Made by a program: the position numbers and the translations under genes. DNA of 64,000 nucleotides from Epibacterium sp. Ofav1-8 (GTDB taxonomy: Bacteria > Pseudomonadota > Alphaproteobacteria > Rhodobacterales > Rhodobacteraceae): NCBI RefSeq assembly GCF_022348185.1, contig NZ_JAKRFD010000005.1:186001-250000 (forward strand). Reading direction: 5' to 3'. Below are positions 38,905-48,143 of the stretch, piece by piece. The stretch's first letter is position 1. Every line of letters starts with the position of its first letter. The notes below the pieces were generated by a model. It was not told the origin of the DNA and did not search any database. It worked only from the letters and a program-made list of their open reading frames with translations.

Positions 38905-39734
38905 TTTAATGCCGCTTCGCGGGCGGCGTCATCAACGTCCGGGCGTTGGCCGAACCAGCGTTCAAACCCCGGAACCGCCTGGTGCAACAGCATGCCAAGG
39001 CCGTTGACCACCGTGCAGCCCGCATCCTCAGCGGCTTGCAACAATCCGGTCTTGAGCGGAGCGTATACCAGATCCGTCACCACGGTCCCTGGCTGCAACC
39101 CATCGAGAGGCACGCGCAGCGCGCGTTGACCAACCATGCCAAGGGACGTCGTATTCACCACCAGCGCGGCATCTTCGAGGATATTCCCGGCCTGGACCCA
39201 GTCTACGACCTTGATTTTCTGACCAAAGGCCTCGGCCAGATCATCGGCACGCGCGCGGGTACGGTTAGTGAGGCGGATTTCGGGAACGCCCGCCTCGATC
39301 AGGGACGCAACGACAGCACGGCTGGCCCCGCCTGCGCCAAACACCGTCGCCGGCCCCGACTTGGGATCCCACTCCGGCGCCCCGTCATGCAGATTGGTGA
39401 TAAAACCGTATCCGTCGGTGTTGTCAGCGACAACAGATCCGTCCTCGCGAAAGATCAACGTGTTGGCCGCGCCCATCAGCTTGGCCCGGTCCGTGACCTT
39501 GTCGGCGATGTCCATGATCGCCTGCTTGTGCGGGATGGTGACATTGGCACCGACAAACCCCATCCGCGGCATCATCCGGACGACGGTTTCGAGGTCTTCG
39601 GGCTCCACGTGCATCGGCATGTAATGACCGTTGATGCCATGGGTCGTCAGCCAGTGACGATGAATCTGCGGCGACTTCGAATGCGCGATGGGGCAGCCGA
39701 TCACACCGGCGAGGGGGACTTTCTGCTCTGTCAT
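38901..39734 (-). CDS. aroE: Shikimate dehydrogenase
   Basis: A 277-residue NADPH-dependent enzyme that reduces 3-dehydroshikimate in aromatic amino acid synthesis. The substrate site GCPIAHSKSPQIH, the catalytic lysine in NVTIPHKQAIM and the nucleotide loop GAGGASRAV are all present. It overlaps maf and coaE by four bases each, so the operon is translationally coupled throughout. Confidence 0.96.
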   Translation of the reverse strand: MTEQKVPLAGVIGCPIAHSKSPQIHRHWLTTHGINGHYMPMHVEPEDLETVVRMMPRMGFVGANVTIPHKQAIMDIADKVTDRAKLMGAANTLIFREDGSVVADNTDGYGFITNLHDGAPEWDPKSGPATVFGAGGASRAVVASLIEAGVPEIRLTNRTRARADDLAEAFGQKIKVVDWVQAGNILEDAALVVNTTSLGMVGQRALRVPLDGLQPGTVVTDLVYAPLKTGLLQAAEDAGCTVVNGLGMLLHQAVPGFERWFGQRPDVDDAAREAALK

Positions 39735-40330
39735 TGTTCGATAATCCCCTGCAATCCCAGATAGTTTATGAGTTCCAACATCGGCAATCCCAAGACATTA
39801 AAGTAGCTGCCGTCAATGGTTGTAAACAGCCGCACGCCCTCTTCTTCGAGTTTGTAGGCGCCGACCGCGCGGCGAATGCTCTCCCAGTTGCGGTCCACGT
39901 AGCTCTCCAGATAGGCGTCGCTGGCCATGCGCATCACCAGCCGTACCTGTCCGACATGGCGCCAGAGCGGCTCCCCATCGCGGTAGATCACTGCGGCCGA
40001 CAACAACATGTGACGTTTGCCGCGCATCGCCTTGAGCTGATCCAGCGCCTGGTCCTTTGTGTCGGGCTTCGACAGCAGCGTGCCCTCAAAATCGAGCACC
40101 TGATCGCAGCCCAGAACCATCTCGCCGGGATGTTTTCCCGACACTTTGCGGGCTTTGGCCTCTGCAAGCGTGTCAGCAATGTCGCGTGGCGCTGCCCCTT
40201 CGGCCAGAAGCGCAGCCTTGATTGCGCCTTCATCGACGCGCGCGACCTCCACACGGAACGCAACCCCCGCCTGACGGAGCAGGTGAGCGCGGATCTCCGA
40301 TCCGGAAGCAAGCAGGATGTGGGTACTCAT
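39731..40330 (-). CDS. maf: Maf-like nucleotide pyrophosphatase
   Basis: A 199-residue Maf/YceF-type protein, a house-cleaning pyrophosphatase of noncanonical nucleotides. The N-terminal LASGSEIRAHLL and the SKPDTKDQA segment fit the family, and the core GCDQVLDFEG is intact. The start ATG at 40330 gives MSTHILLASGS; the open frame runs on to 40450 inside the origin region. The ribosome site is weak. The start codon touches a DnaA-box-like TGTGGACAA, so this promoter lies within the proposed origin. Confidence 0.93.
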   Translation of the reverse strand: MSTHILLASGSEIRAHLLRQAGVAFRVEVARVDEGAIKAALLAEGAAPRDIADTLAEAKARKVSGKHPGEMVLGCDQVLDFEGTLLSKPDTKDQALDQLKAMRGKRHMLLSAAVIYRDGEPLWRHVGQVRLVMRMASDAYLESYVDRNWESIRRAVGAYKLEEEGVRLFTTIDGSYFNVLGLPMLELINYLGLQGIIEQ

Positions 40331-40338
40331 GTGGACAA
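40330..40338 (-). promoter_or_regulatory. DnaA-box-like nonamer 1
   Basis: TGTGGACAA, reverse complement TTGTCCACA, differs from TTATCCACA at one base. It overlaps the maf start codon. Confidence 0.5.
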
Positions 40339-40474
40339 CCCTATGGGAAAACGTCTGATCATTCAGGGACGTTTTGTATGATTTTCCACCCTCAGCGCAA
40401 GGGTGGGACAACTCCCGAAATCTCAGGTGATTCCTCCGCGATTCCTCCATCGGGGATTGGGATAACTTTGACCA

Positions 40475-40483
40475 CGTGGATAA
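40475..40483 (-). promoter_or_regulatory. DnaA-box-like nonamer 2
   Basis: CGTGGATAA, reverse complement TTATCCACG, differs from TTATCCACA only in the last base. Confidence 0.55.
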
Positions 40484-40510
40484 GTCGCACTCTCCCGGTT
40501 TGTCCCGATG

Positions 40511-40519
40511 TTATCCCCA
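40511..40519 (+). promoter_or_regulatory. DnaA-box-like nonamer 3
   Basis: TTATCCCCA differs from TTATCCACA at one position and is directly left of the first AT-rich block. Confidence 0.5.
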
Positions 40520-40522
40520 GAG

Positions 40523-40570
40523 TCTCATATGTAAATATTTTGTTAACGCCTCTAATTTTAAGGGCGTTAA
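40523..40570. other. AT-rich block 1 with near-CtrA box
   Basis: An AT-rich stretch holding TAAA-N7-TTAAC at 40532-40547, one base away from a full CtrA box, and further TTAA motifs at 40558 and 40567. It is a candidate unwinding or regulatory segment of the origin. Confidence 0.4.
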
Positions 40571-40645
40571 GGAGTTGTTCACCCTTCTGGCGGGAATAAG
40601 GCAGGAAAACTGTCCACCCTGTGCAGAACCGGTGTGAAGACTCGA

Positions 40646-40654
40646 TAATCCACG
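40646..40654 (+). promoter_or_regulatory. Weak DnaA-box-like nonamer 4
   Basis: TAATCCACG has two differences from TTATCCACA and lies between the two AT-rich blocks. Confidence 0.3.
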
Positions 40655-40684
40655 GATTCCGGGGTGCACTACAAAAACATCATC

Positions 40685-40709
40685 CTTATAAAACTTATTA
40701 ATTATATTA
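40685..40709. other. AT-rich block 2, candidate unwinding element
   Basis: A 25-base run with only two G or C bases, unlike the GC-rich surroundings, about 40 bases before hemJ. It could be the DNA unwinding element, although the hemJ promoter could also lie here. Confidence 0.4.
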
Positions 40710-40748
40710 GGGTGGCCCACCGACCCGACTGCACCAAGGAAGCCTTCC

Positions 40749-41204
40749 ATGGATCTGACTGATCTGATGTTCACCCTCTATCCTTACGTGAAATCTCTTC
40801 ACATCATGGCAGTGATCAGTTGGATGGCGGGTCTTTTCTACCTCCCACGTCTGTTTGTGTATCACGTGGAGGAGGCTGAGAAGGTCCAGGATGTAGCGCC
40901 GATCTTCCTCACCATGGAACACAAGCTGCTCAGAGTGATCATGGGCCCAGCAAGCGTTGTGACCTGGGTTGCAGGGCTGTTTATGGTGTTCACGCCGGGG
41001 CTGGTGGATTGGTCCTACATCTGGCCCTGGACCAAGGGCGCATCGGTGCTTGCGATGACATGGTTCCATCATTGGCTGATGTTTCGTCACAAGGACTTCA
41101 AAGCGGGCAAGAACACCCTCACAGGGCGTCAGTATCGCCTGATGAACGAGGTTCCGACCCTTCTGATGGTGGTGATCGTGGTCTCTGTGATCTTCAAGTT
41201 CTGA
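40749..41204 (+). CDS. hemJ: Protoporphyrinogen oxidase HemJ
   Basis: A 151-residue four-helix membrane protein of the HemJ (UPF0093) family, which oxidises protoporphyrinogen IX to protoporphyrin IX in most alphaproteobacteria. The family pattern VKSLHIMAVISWMAGLFYLP carries the conserved histidine, and LGR-type positively charged loops follow. AAGGAA lies seven bases before the ATG. In other alphaproteobacteria hemE or hemH occupies this place next to the origin. Confidence 0.93.
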   Translation: MDLTDLMFTLYPYVKSLHIMAVISWMAGLFYLPRLFVYHVEEAEKVQDVAPIFLTMEHKLLRVIMGPASVVTWVAGLFMVFTPGLVDWSYIWPWTKGASVLAMTWFHHWLMFRHKDFKAGKNTLTGRQYRLMNEVPTLLMVVIVVSVIFKF

Positions 41205-41331
41205 CGCGGGGTTTGACTCACCTTCGGAGACTCACTATCTAGCGATAAAGCGGCCCCGTCCGGGATTCCCGCATTTTCCGTATTTGATACTGTGACGCCC
41301 TCCACCCTGAGGGAATAAAGGCCGTGTGCAT

Positions 41332-42603
41332 ATGACCGAGCAATCCCTGAACCTTTCCGATCTCAAGGCGCAAAGCCCAAAAGCCCTCCTGGCAATGGCC
41401 GAGGAGCTGGAGATCGAAAACGCCTCCACCATGCGCAAGGGCGAGATGATGTTCCAGATCCTGCGTGAACGCGCGGATGAGGGCTGGAACATCGGTGGGG
41501 ACGGGGTTCTGGAAGTGCTCCAGGACGGTTTTGGCTTTCTGCGCTCGCCAGAGGCCAACTATCTGCCCGGTCCGGACGATATCTACGTCTCTCCTGACAT
41601 GATCCGCCAGTTCTCGCTGCGCACCGGCGACACGGTTGAGGGGCAGATCAAGGCACCACTGGAGAACGAGCGTTACTTCGCCCTGACGACAGTGACCAAG
41701 ATCAACTTCGAAGAGCCTGAGAAGGCCCGTCACAAGATCGCATTCGACAACCTGACGCCGCTGTACCCGGATGAGCGCCTGAACATGGAGATCGAGGATC
41801 CCACCGTGAAGGATCGCTCCGCACGTGTGATCGACCTGGTTTCGCCGATCGGTAAGGGTCAGCGTTCGCTCATCGTGGCGCCGCCGCGGACCGGTAAGAC
41901 TGTTCTGCTGCAAAATATCGCCCACTCGATCGAGCAGAACCACCCGGAATGCTATCTGATCGTCCTTCTGATCGACGAACGTCCCGAAGAAGTCACCGAC
42001 ATGCAGCGCTCCGTCAAAGGCGAGGTCGTATCCTCCACCTTTGACGAGCCCGCAGCGCGTCACGTGGCGGTGTCCGAGATGGTCATTGAAAAAGCCAAAC
42101 GCTTGGTTGAGCACAAGCGTGACGTGGTGATCCTGCTCGACTCGATCACGCGTCTCGGCCGTGCCTTCAACACGGTTGTGCCGTCGTCTGGTAAGGTCCT
42201 GACCGGTGGTGTCGACGCAAACGCCCTGCAACGTCCCAAGCGCTTCTTTGGGGCTGCGCGGAACATCGAAGAGGGCGGCTCGCTCACCATTATCGCAACC
42301 GCGCTGATCGACACAGGCAGCCGGATGGACGAGGTTATCTTTGAAGAATTCAAAGGTACGGGTAACTCTGAGATCGTTCTGGACCGTAAGATCGCCGACA
42401 AGCGCGTGTTCCCCGCCATCGACATTCTTAAGTCCGGAACGCGGAAAGAGGACCTTCTGGTTGACAAGGCGGATCTGGCCAAAACCTTTGTCCTGCGTCG
42501 TATCCTGAATCCGATGGGCACCACGGATGCGATCGAGTTCTTGCTTTCTAAGCTTAAGCAAACAAAGACAAATTCTGAGTTCTTCGACTCGATGAACACG
42601 TAA
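41332..42603 (+). CDS. rho: Transcription termination factor Rho
   Basis: A 423-residue hexameric RNA helicase that ends untranslated transcripts. The N-terminal helical domain is followed by the RNA-binding cold-shock-like domain (DGFGFLRS) and the ATPase core with Walker A PPRTGKTV and Walker [11 protein letters not shown]. An ATG at 41332 is preferred to the GTG at 41326 because it gives the family start [12 protein letters not shown] and follows AAAGG. It is 127 bases after hemJ, a gap that may hold the rho promoter or attenuator. Confidence 0.97.
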
Positions 42604-43924: not shown

Positions 43925-43940
43925 TGTTTCACGTGAAACA
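43925..43940. other. parS site 1
   Basis: TGTTTCACGTGAAACA is a perfect 16-base match to the bacterial parS consensus, the loading site of ParB. It overlaps the translation start of mnmG and lies about 3.2 kb right of the proposed origin and 2.5 kb left of parA. Confidence 0.95.
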
Positions 43941-45807: not shown

Positions 45808-46421
45808 GCCTCGAAATGGTAACGGAGCGCTTCAATGTTTCACGTGAAACATCAGAACGCTTGAAGATATATGCGGATACGCTGACCAAATGGAACCCCA
45901 AGATCAATCTGGTTTCGCGAAGGAGCCTCGAGGATCTTTGGACACGGCATATCCTTGATAGCGTGCAGGTATTTGAAGCAGTCGAACCAGCCGAGACATG
46001 GCTCGACATTGGCAGCGGTGGCGGGCTGCCGGGCATTATCGTGGCGATCATGGCTGCAGAACAAGCGCCGGATATGTCTGTCACGCTGATGGAGAGTGAT
46101 CAGCGCAAGTCCGCGTTCTTGCGCAGCGTGGCCAGAGAATGTGGAGTGAACGTCGCGGTAAAAGCCGAGAGAATTGAACATGCGTCACCAGTGGGTGCAG
46201 GGGTTCTTTCCGCGCGCGCGTTGGCCGATCTGTCTGATCTTCTGAGTTTTTCTGAGCGTCACTTGCATCCAGGTGGCGTTTCTGTGTTCCCAAAGGGCGC
46301 CAGTTGGAAAAAAGAAGTGGATAACGCACGCAAACAATGGCGGTTTGAGTGTGAAGAGATTACAAGTCTTACTGAGCCAGAGGCTGTCATTCTCAAAATC
46401 AAGGGAGTAGAGCGTGTCTGA
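45804..46421 (+). CDS. rsmG: 16S rRNA (guanine-N7)-methyltransferase RsmG
   Basis: A 205-residue SAM-dependent enzyme that methylates G527 of 16S rRNA; loss gives low-level streptomycin resistance. The SAM-binding motif [11 protein letters not shown] is intact. Residues 11-15, NVSRE, are encoded by the second parS site, so this coding stretch doubles as a partition element. The gene overlaps mnmG by four and parA by eight bases. Codon use is relatively AT-rich, like mnmG. Confidence 0.95.
45836..45851. other. parS site 2
   Basis: A second perfect TGTTTCACGTGAAACA, within the 5' coding part of rsmG, where it encodes NVSRET. It is 1.9 kb from site 1 and 563 bases upstream of parA. Confidence 0.95.
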
Positions 46422-47226
46422 AGTGTCCCGTTCGGGAGACCCCCGCATTGTTGCAATTGCAAATCAGAAAGGCGGGGTAGGGAAGACAACCACAGCCATC
46501 AACCTCGCCGCTGCGATGGTGGAAGAGGGGATGCGGGTGCTTCTTGTTGACCTCGATCCGCAGGGAAATGCTTCCACCGGCTTGGGTGTTGAGGCGGATG
46601 AGCGGGATCATACGACGTATGATCTTCTGGTCGAGGAAGCCGAGCTATCGCAATGCATTCGCGAAACCGACCTCGAAGATCTCTGTATAATCCCTGCAAC
46701 CGTTGATTTAAGCTCTGCAGACATTGAGTTGTTTTCCAACGAGAAGCGCAGTTTCCTTCTTCATGATGCTTTGCGACAGCCGGCCATGGGCGAATACGAT
46801 TGGGATTACATCCTGATCGACTGCCCGCCATCGTTAAACCTATTGACTGTGAATGCGATGGTTGCGGCACATTCGGTACTGATTCCGCTTCAGAGCGAGT
46901 TTTTTGCGCTTGAAGGTCTGTCGCAACTGATGCTGACAATTCGAGAAGTCCGCCAGGCCGCAAACCCCGATCTTCGGATCGAGGGGGTCGTATTGACAAT
47001 GTACGACCGGCGGAACAACCTTTCTCAGCAGGTTGAACAGGATGCGAGAGACAATCTCGGTGATCTGGTCTTTCGTACCAAGATTCCGCGCAACGTCCGG
47101 GTCAGCGAAGCTCCATCCTACGCCATGCCGGTGCTGAATTATGATCCCGGGTCGCTCGGCGCAAAGGCTTATCGGCAACTTGCGGGTGAGATCATTGGAA
47201 ACCATGAAGATGTTGCGGCGGAATAA
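46414..47226 (+). CDS. parA: Chromosome partitioning ATPase ParA
   Basis: A 270-residue deviant Walker A ATPase (ANQKGGVGKTTTAINLA) that forms the nucleoid-bound gradient for moving ParB-parS complexes, hence newly replicated origins. LVDLDPQGNA and LIDCPPSLNLLT are conserved. It begins with GTG at 46414, inside rsmG, preceded by AAGGGAG. The position beside parB, parS and the probable origin identifies it as the chromosomal copy rather than a plasmid-type ParA. Confidence 0.96.
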   Translation: MSEVSRSGDPRIVAIANQKGGVGKTTTAINLAAAMVEEGMRVLLVDLDPQGNASTGLGVEADERDHTTYDLLVEEAELSQCIRETDLEDLCIIPATVDLSSADIELFSNEKRSFLLHDALRQPAMGEYDWDYILIDCPPSLNLLTVNAMVAAHSVLIPLQSEFFALEGLSQLMLTIREVRQAANPDLRIEGVVLTMYDRRNNLSQQVEQDARDNLGDLVFRTKIPRNVRVSEAPSYAMPVLNYDPGSLGAKAYRQLAGEIIGNHEDVAAE

Positions 47227-47243: not shown

Positions 47244-48143
47244 ATGGCAGATAAGAAACCGAAACCGCGCGGCCTTGGCCGCGGATTGTCGGCATTGATG
47301 GCGGATGTGAATGCGGAACCGGTGAGTACCGAGGGTGGCACTGCGCCTCGGAACGCCGTTGTTCTTGTTCCGATCGAGAAGGTTCAAGCCAATCCTGATC
47401 AGCCCCGACGCCAGTTCCTGCAAGAAGATCTGGATGATCTGACAGCATCGATCAAGGAAAAAGGGGTGCTTCAACCCCTGATCGTGCGGCCGCGAGAGGG
47501 TGGTATCTACGAGATCGTCGCGGGCGAACGTCGTTGGCGGGCTGCTCAGGCCGCGCAGCTGCACGAGGTTCCGGTTCTGATCCGCGACTACTCCGATGTG
47601 GAGATGCTCGAAGTCGCGATCATCGAGAATATCCAGCGATCGGATCTGAACGCGTTGGAAGAAGCACAGAGCTACAAGCAGCTGATGGACAAGTTCGGCC
47701 ATACGCAGGAAAAGATGGCCGAGGCTCTTGGTAAAAGCCGGAGCCACATCGCCAATCTGGTGCGGTTGCTGCACTTGCCAGAGGATGTCCAAGGTCTTGT
47801 TCTGGATCGCAAGTTGTCCGCAGGTCACGCGCGCGCGCTGATTACATCTGACAATGCGTCTGAACTCGCGAAGAAAATTGTCAAAGGCGGCTTGTCGGTC
47901 CGTGCGACAGAATCTCTGGTGAAAAAGGATGCGGCGGGGATCTCTGGTGGCACCGGGACCAAGAAGCCAAAGTCCCAGGCGGAGAAGGATGCAGACACGC
48001 GTGCGCTGGAGGGCGATTTGTCAGCGATGATCCGCATGAAGGTTTCCATCGATCACAAACCGGGCGAAGAGTCCGGTACAATGACAATCTCGTATGAGAC
48101 TTTGGATCAGCTGGACGAGCTGTGCAATCTGCTTAGCCGTTAG
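47244..48143 (+). CDS. parB: Chromosome partitioning protein ParB
   Basis: A 299-residue CTP-dependent DNA clamp that loads at parS and spreads, recruiting ParA and SMC. The CTP-binding GERRWRAAQ motif, the ENIQRSDLNALEEA segment and the helix-turn-helix (KMAEALGKSRSHIANLVRLL) are all present. A lysine-rich linker precedes the dimerisation domain. AGAGGGG precedes the ATG at 47244. Its last 11 bases overlap the 3' end of the convergent DUF454 gene. Confidence 0.97.
   Translation: MADKKPKPRGLGRGLSALMADVNAEPVSTEGGTAPRNAVVLVPIEKVQANPDQPRRQFLQEDLDDLTASIKEKGVLQPLIVRPREGGIYEIVAGERRWRAAQAAQLHEVPVLIRDYSDVEMLEVAIIENIQRSDLNALEEAQSYKQLMDKFGHTQEKMAEALGKSRSHIANLVRLLHLPEDVQGLVLDRKLSAGHARALITSDNASELAKKIVKGGLSVRATESLVKKDAAGISGGTGTKKPKSQAEKDADTRALEGDLSAMIRMKVSIDHKPGEESGTMTISYETLDQLDELCNLLSR

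Follow-up and report, generated by a model that had tools for sequence, protein, structure and literature searches.

The maf-hemJ spacer of a Tritonibacter-like roseobacter as a probable chromosomal origin related to Cori, with a proposed trio-type opening module

Results

The spacer and its neighbourhood

The 418-bp spacer between the divergent genes maf and hemJ is very probably the oriC of a Tritonibacter-like roseobacter, homologous to Cori and carrying what we propose to be a trio-type opening module. We analysed a window of 64,000 nucleotides (positions 186001-250000 of the 357,213-bp contig C33) from a genome of 4.76 Mb in 37 contigs, whose closest named hemJ among the loci fetched is that of Tritonibacter mobilis (99%). 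The spacer has a GC content of 48%, compared with 60% for the window. On its left side the gene order is dnaQ, coaE, aroE, and maf, pointing leftward, and to its right it is hemJ, rho, mnmE, mnmG, rsmG, parA, and parB, pointing rightward. Both perfect copies of parS lie 3-5 kb to the right, and parS and parAB together lie within 3-7 kb:

40331..40748, unstranded: candidate oriC, the maf-hemJ intergenic region (skew minimum, DnaA-box cluster, conservation)
39731..40330, minus strand: maf (TIGR00172, 110 bits, under its cut-off of 117.15)
40749..41204, plus strand: hemJ (TIGR00701, 123.8 bits, under its cut-off of 138.05)
41326..42603, plus strand: rho (TIGR00767)
43925..43940, plus strand: perfect parS TGTTTCACGTGAAACA at the start of mnmG (sequence match)
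45836..45851, plus strand: perfect parS TGTTTCACGTGAAACA within rsmG (sequence match)
46414..47226, plus strand: parA (ParA/MinD-family matches, under curated cut-offs)
47244..48143, plus strand: parB (TIGR00180, 199.3 bits)

An earlier, sequence-only reading of this DNA had described a 418-base gap with no gene between divergent maf and hemJ, flanked by gene blocks typical of alphaproteobacterial origins. The gap is real: a mechanical ORF for maf extends to 40450, but alignments to the Maf family profiles start at residues 1-7 of the version whose start is at 40330. The second statement holds in part, in that these genes belong to the neighbourhood of the Caulobacter origin; however, a profile search of this genome found no DUF299 (PF03618), and hemE is located on contig C11 rather than at the spacer.

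Skew minima

The same reading had proposed a probable origin here and had named cumulative GC and keto skew as a check on which the proposal could fail. On C33 the cumulative GC-skew minimum falls at window position 40805, which is 57 bp beyond the right-hand edge of the spacer, mean skew being -0.033 over the left 226 kb and +0.052 over the right 130 kb. The purine-skew minimum is at 41308, 560 bp right of the spacer, but that of keto skew, shallower than the GC-skew one, is 19 kb to the left. In a near-complete genome of the same genus (G008), 40 samples of 20 kb across the 3.2-Mb contig placed the cumulative GC-skew minimum at the maf-hemJ spacer, and at base level, in a 140-kb stretch, it fell at 3,030,353, inside maf and about 60 bp from the spacer. 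Skew in G008 is positive up to 1.30 Mb, negative to 2.74 Mb, and positive from 3.04 Mb, a pattern broken by one positive sample at 2.80 Mb followed by two negative ones. Two genomes of other genera agree less closely: skew has two phases in both, and the local minimum lies 1.6 kb from the spacer in G020 and 18 kb from it in G030. Taken with parAB, the two parS copies, the clustering of DnaA boxes, and conservation across the family, the skew minima support the proposed location, and the maf-hemJ spacer is almost certainly where the chromosomal origin lies, insofar as firing can be predicted from sequence.

DnaA boxes and AT-rich DNA

DnaA boxes were scored as nonamers by their mismatches to the consensus TTATCCACA. 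The spacer contains the following elements:

40330..40338, minus strand: DnaA box TTGTCCACA, 1 mismatch, overlapping the maf start codon; GTGGA-AACCC conserved in relatives
40457..40465, minus strand: weak DnaA-like site TTATCCCAA, 2 mismatches; GGATAA conserved
40475..40483, minus strand: DnaA box TTATCCACG, 1 mismatch
40511..40519, plus strand: DnaA box TTATCCCCA, 1 mismatch; TTATCC-CA conserved
40521..40562, unstranded: left AT-rich block, weakly conserved
40543..40570, unstranded: perfect inverted repeat TTAACGCC-N12-GGCGTTAA with TTAA half-sites, seen in the sequence; low conservation in the family
40620..40628, minus strand: degenerate DnaA-like site TTCTGCACA, 2 mismatches; closer to consensus in some relatives
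40646..40654, plus strand: anchor DnaA box TAATCCACG, 2 mismatches, adjoining the predicted unwinding module
40669..40686, plus strand: six-triplet module CTA CAA AAA CAT CAT CCT, candidate variant DnaA-trios (C columns, period 3)
40687..40712, unstranded: A/T-rich tract with almost no G, predicted to serve as the DNA-unwinding element; T-rich in relatives

The three nonamers one base from consensus that had been reported are present, the first of them starting one base outside the spacer. The weaker fourth box that accompanied them is best identified with TAATCCACG, which is the best-conserved box in relatives; additional DnaA-like sites with 2 mismatches lie within the spacer at 40382, 40457, and 40620. 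The two AT-rich blocks reported in this GC-rich DNA were likewise recovered in 40-bp windows, with 85% A+T at 40670-40709, beside the anchor box, and 75% in the windows from 40521-40523. What is unusual is the clustering of the boxes, not their total in the window: the 64-kb window holds 11 sites at ≤1 mismatch against 5.6 expected, a modest excess, while the spacer is the sole 420-bp stretch of C33 (357 kb, 32 such sites) to contain three. Across 81 spacers, the window included, the mean is 2.83 sites at ≤1 mismatch, compared with 0.127 in order-1 randomised sequences.

Control sites like those of Caulobacter were considered and rejected. In a motif scan of the spacer, the full CtrA site TTAA-N7-TTAA had no exact match, two loose CtrA-like sites being present, and the IHF consensus had no full match. 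Sites for CcrM methylation (GANTC) occur at 40429, 40440, 40520, 40639, and 40655, five in the spacer where the contig's frequency predicts 0.55. Family-wide the excess is small (2.46 vs. 1.68 per spacer), with Leisingera spacers reaching 7-9, and we dropped this cluster as a hallmark of the origin.

Conservation in the Rhodobacteraceae

We compared the locus with 82 relatives' loci, of which a truncated one (L070) and one in the opposite orientation (L023) were left out; the remaining 80, with the window, give the 81 spacers used here. Divergent maf and hemJ with a spacer of 321-452 bp were found in all 80 scorable relatives, a sample that favours genomes keeping hemJ because the loci were found via that gene. 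The most conserved stretch is the right side of the spacer, comprising TAATCCAC at 40646, C(C/A)CTACAAAAnCATCATC(C/T)TT at 40667-40687, and then a T-rich tract. Within box TAATCCACG, A at 40648 is present in 81/81 spacers, and T, C, and C at 40649-40651 in 75-78. In some relatives, L112 and L117 among them, an apparent tandem second DnaA box can be made out by eye; in the window it is degenerate. In four others (L095, L099, L104, and L123) the box and the triplet module are closer together, about 13 bases being missing between them. One record, L061 (JAHVJD010000003.1), is titled Nocardioides marinus, an actinobacterial name; it has roseobacter-like maf and hemJ (82% in hemJ) with the same spacer, and is probably mislabelled or contaminated.

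Homology with the DUF299-hemE origin

From 38 Rhodobacteraceae spacers we built a sequence-only model, R1, of the right-hand 68 bp of the spacer. A strict pattern, ATCCNC..CTAC..CATCATC, had matched 43 of 149 family genomes, many of the matches resembling one recurrent coding sequence, and R1 was used instead. In the genome under study R1 scores 51 bits at the spacer and 11.6 bits at the next best place. Among the 149 family genomes, some of which also supplied spacers to the model, 89 matched at E≤0.001, in one place each, and under these strict filters 60 gave no match. All 30 family loci that were checked adjoin maf, and 28 of them also adjoin hemJ; in the other two, L335 and L341, maf and rho flank the site, with no hemJ match beside the element.

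In 190 genomes of the class, R1 matched 39 at E≤0.01, three of these being family members. Of 27 out-of-family loci fetched, 10 adjoin maf, and these account for 8 of the 11 highest-scoring loci; the remaining 17, not beside maf, look like chance matches. The 10 maf-side distant loci have the settings DUF299-[site]-hemE (seven), maf-[site]-hemE (two), and DUF299-[site]-rho (one). PF03618 adjoins the site in 8/10, and a hemE-like ORF lies to its right in 9/10; Pfam confirmed all six hemE calls tested and four DUF299 calls. At one distant locus (L235) the order is maf, DUF299, [site], hemE, hemJ, which becomes the order of the window if DUF299 and hemE are removed. DUF299-hemE is the origin setting in Caulobacter and Rickettsia (PMC1914354). 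Since R1 also lands in DUF299-hemE spacers, the maf-hemJ spacer appears to be the ancestral origin with new neighbours, that is, homologous to the alphaproteobacterial Cori, DUF299 having presumably been lost and hemE moved, so that maf and hemJ now flank it.

A C-first triplet module

Between the anchor box and the A/T-rich tract lie six triplets whose complement, read outward from the box, is 3'-GAT GTT TTT GTA GTA GGA-5'. C occupies 40669, 40672, 40678, 40681, and 40684 in 75, 79, 75, 77, and 69 of the 81 spacers, respectively, and all five columns together in 57; the third triplet starts at 40675 with A in 58/81 and C in 22/81. Up to 40683, the positions separating the C columns carry A or T in 72-81 of the 81 spacers. 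In the window the box ends at 40654 and the triplets start at 40669, a spacing of 14 nt; the spacing is 13 in the 52/81 spacers that have a one-base gap, and a length of 13 was the most frequent in the survey of the basal unwinding system (BUS; PMC8287927).

The published search rule for a BUS asks for three middle-A triplets (3'-NAN-5') within 16 nt of a box. The window does have a DnaA box, at ≤2 mismatches, within 16 nt of triplets. Three or more middle-A triplets within that distance are absent, the only near one being the first, GAT; the window's middle-A triplets, ATC ATC CTT ATA (40679-40690), begin only 24 nt after the box, which places the module outside the published rule.

Forward runs of C followed by two non-G bases (CHH) were scored against order-1 random sequence. 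The pattern had been CWW at first and was widened to CHH after inspection of the first 30 DUF299 loci, 25 of which gave usable DUF299-hemE spacers (the other five had no hemE within 700 nt). In this first set C-first runs were longer than expected (4.40 vs. 3.09), with runs of at least five in 9 spacers vs. 1.2; on the reverse strand such runs occurred in 0 vs. 0.7 expected. Signals were weaker in a base-by-base control (C.. z 3.3, A.. z 2.2, C[not C][not C] z 1.7). Since CHH had been adopted with this set in view, the prediction was fixed before 30 unseen loci were fetched; 21 of these were usable and nine, without hemE within 700 nt, were left out. In this held-out set C-first runs gave z 7.4, runs of at least five occurred in 10/21 vs. 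1.0 expected, and 11 of 13 runs of at least four lay at the predicted place; the reverse strand was slightly raised (z 2.0) and had no run of at least five. No run of at least four triplets was found in 8/25 first-set and 8/21 held-out spacers.

Canonical runs with a middle T (.T.) were not enriched in the DUF299-hemE spacers, either in the first set (3.64 vs. 3.87 expected) or in the held-out one (z 0.0), and canonical trios were therefore rejected as the shared element. In the Rhodobacteraceae, runs of this type were raised (5.80 vs. 4.44; every second spacer, 41 of 81). As a guard against a mere lack of G, letters were permuted within the longest G-free tract in three sets. C-to-C coincidences peaked at lag 3 (ratios 1.51, 1.64, and 1.85) and lag 6 (1.46, 1.48, and 1.28); in two sets lag 4 was also raised, though less so (1.25 and 1.30). 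A runs were also raised, and in the Rhodobacteraceae T period-3 runs too. Judged on these alignments and runs, a C-first triplet module (complement 3'-GNN-5') between the last DnaA box and the AT tract is class-wide.

DnaA residues

In the structure of Bacillus subtilis DnaA, contacts to the guanine come from Arg202 and Glu228, while Asn187 holds the middle adenine and Asn196 the third base (PMC10721633); we infer from matching residue numbers that PDB chain 8btg is this protein. The DnaA of the genome under study has Tyr210 at the position of Asn187, Arg219 at that of Asn196, and Lys225 at that of Arg202, and keeps the glutamate. We tabulated 33 alphaproteobacterial DnaA proteins (four from Rhodobacteraceae and 29 others; L321, not a DnaA, was left out). 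The Asn187 position is Tyr in 26, Phe in 2, His in 2, and Asn, Arg, and Val in 1 each; the Asn196 position is Lys or Arg in 31/33; the Arg202 position is Lys, and Glu228 is kept, in all 33. With Lys in place of Arg202, Glu228 kept, and Asn187 changed, the guanine-side residues would be similar and the middle-base reader altered in step with the DNA. This match of DNA and protein is correlative, seen in a single class, and does not amount to proof; the Tyr may be a single clade-level event rather than a response to the repeat.

The sole Asn-bearing DnaA of the 33 belongs to G288 (L280 and L316), and in that genome the spacer on the DUF299 side carries a run, CTA CTA CTT, that is close to canonical. 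The pairing fits a reading of trios by this residue but is anecdotal, being a single case noticed afterwards.

Discussion

Proposed opening of the origin

We propose that DnaA-ATP would load onto the scattered strong and weak boxes, and that an oligomer of DnaA would start at box TAATCCACG (40646), which is oriented towards the AT-rich tract. The oligomer would extend over the GC-rich 14 bp that follow, engage a single strand of the triplets at 40669-40686 (3'-GAT GTT TTT GTA GTA GGA-5'), and then melt the A/T tract at 40687-40712 for helicase loading. In the alphaproteobacterial code suggested here, the first guanine of each trio would be fixed and the middle base relaxed, with Tyr rather than Asn as the middle-base reader of DnaA. 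We lean slightly towards regarding the C-first triplets as variant DnaA-trios. The broader proposal, of a class-specific code in which DnaA with Tyr or another aromatic residue for Asn187 and Lys for Arg202 reads first-guanine-only trios, in an element that outlived both flanking genes, seems to us an even bet.

A reading with rather less than an even chance of being correct is that the spacer is oriC but its C-first triplets are not read by DnaA: a G-poor lead-in might be bound by another factor, or DnaA might read the T-rich strand farther on, in the manner of E. coli DnaA. The T-rich nature of 40687-40712 in relatives, the lack of enrichment of canonical middle-A trios in DUF299-hemE spacers, and the period-3 runs of A and T in the Rhodobacteraceae all agree with it. 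However, the period of C stands out in three sets against permutations made within the G-free tract, the spacing from box to triplets matches the commonest BUS spacing (PMC8287927), and DnaA retains its guanine contact, Glu228, but has a changed middle-base reader, each of which favours reading of the triplets by DnaA.

It is very improbable that the spacer is a mere promoter region with chance DnaA-box-like sites. The promoters of divergent maf and hemJ probably do lie inside it, but promoters would leave unexplained the skew minima on C33 and in G008 and the density of DnaA boxes, as well as the persistence of the element beside DUF299-hemE, maf-hemE, and DUF299-rho and its retention in the two of 30 family loci that have no hemJ.

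Still less credible is a true origin adjoining dnaA, which sits at the very start of the G008 and G020 contigs, a common numbering convention: skew in G008 is positive on either side of the contig junction and switches at maf-hemJ, 171 kb off, and in the genome under study, where dnaA is 186 kb from the spacer, no DnaA box at ≤1 mismatch occurs at C33:38500-43500, about 2 kb either side of dnaA, so that this location was rejected. The first 20 kb of G020, at its dnaA end, has weakly negative skew (-0.006). As dnaA marks the start of the near-complete records G008 C3 and G020 C1, and the spacer lies 171 kb away in the former and about 82 kb away in the latter, base 1 of such records should not be taken as the origin.

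Significance and comparison with known origins

With the maf-hemJ spacer as oriC, the start of replication would be fixed for a much-studied group of marine bacteria in which the numbering of records may begin at dnaA, and an origin element would be seen to outlive its neighbour genes. Rhodobacteraceae origins have been predicted earlier by Ori-Finder in 101 strains (PMC6699656), and the location is thus of an already known kind. For the class-wide C-first module with its DnaA partner change, we found no description in the open-access (PMC) papers that our searches reached; the supplementary tables of the BUS survey may list some of these origins. That survey named a gap concerning such origins and suspected deviant trios (PMC8287927). 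If the triplets are read as proposed, they would give an outline answer to how origins without middle-adenine trios melt, and the matched changes in DNA and DnaA could be swapped and tested.

The Ori-Finder origins, from the same family, likewise lie near parAB and at skew minima; the passages of that study consulted make no mention of the maf-hemJ spacer or of its element and triplets (PMC6699656). Like the Cori of Caulobacter crescentus, and the origins that have been predicted from it in Rickettsia and Wolbachia, the roseobacter spacer is of similar size and has DnaA boxes, TCCCCA-type weak sites, and an AT-rich tract; box TTATCCCCA contains TCCCCA, the sequence of the Caulobacter W-box (PMC4285127). 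The R1 element is shared with DUF299-hemE spacers of other families, the comparison being with the loci of those families. The roseobacter spacer differs from Cori in being flanked by maf and hemJ, not DUF299 and hemE, and in having no full CtrA or IHF consensus site.

Compared with the BUS of B. subtilis (PMC6669920, PMC8287927, PMC10721633), the later roseobacter triplets (GTT, TTT, GTA, GTA, and GGA) are without a middle A, and roseobacter DnaA has Tyr, not Asn, where the middle A is contacted. The order of parts is likewise a box, a 13-14-nt spacer, triplets, and AT-rich DNA, and the first roseobacter triplet is exactly 3'-GAT-5', as in the canonical trios.
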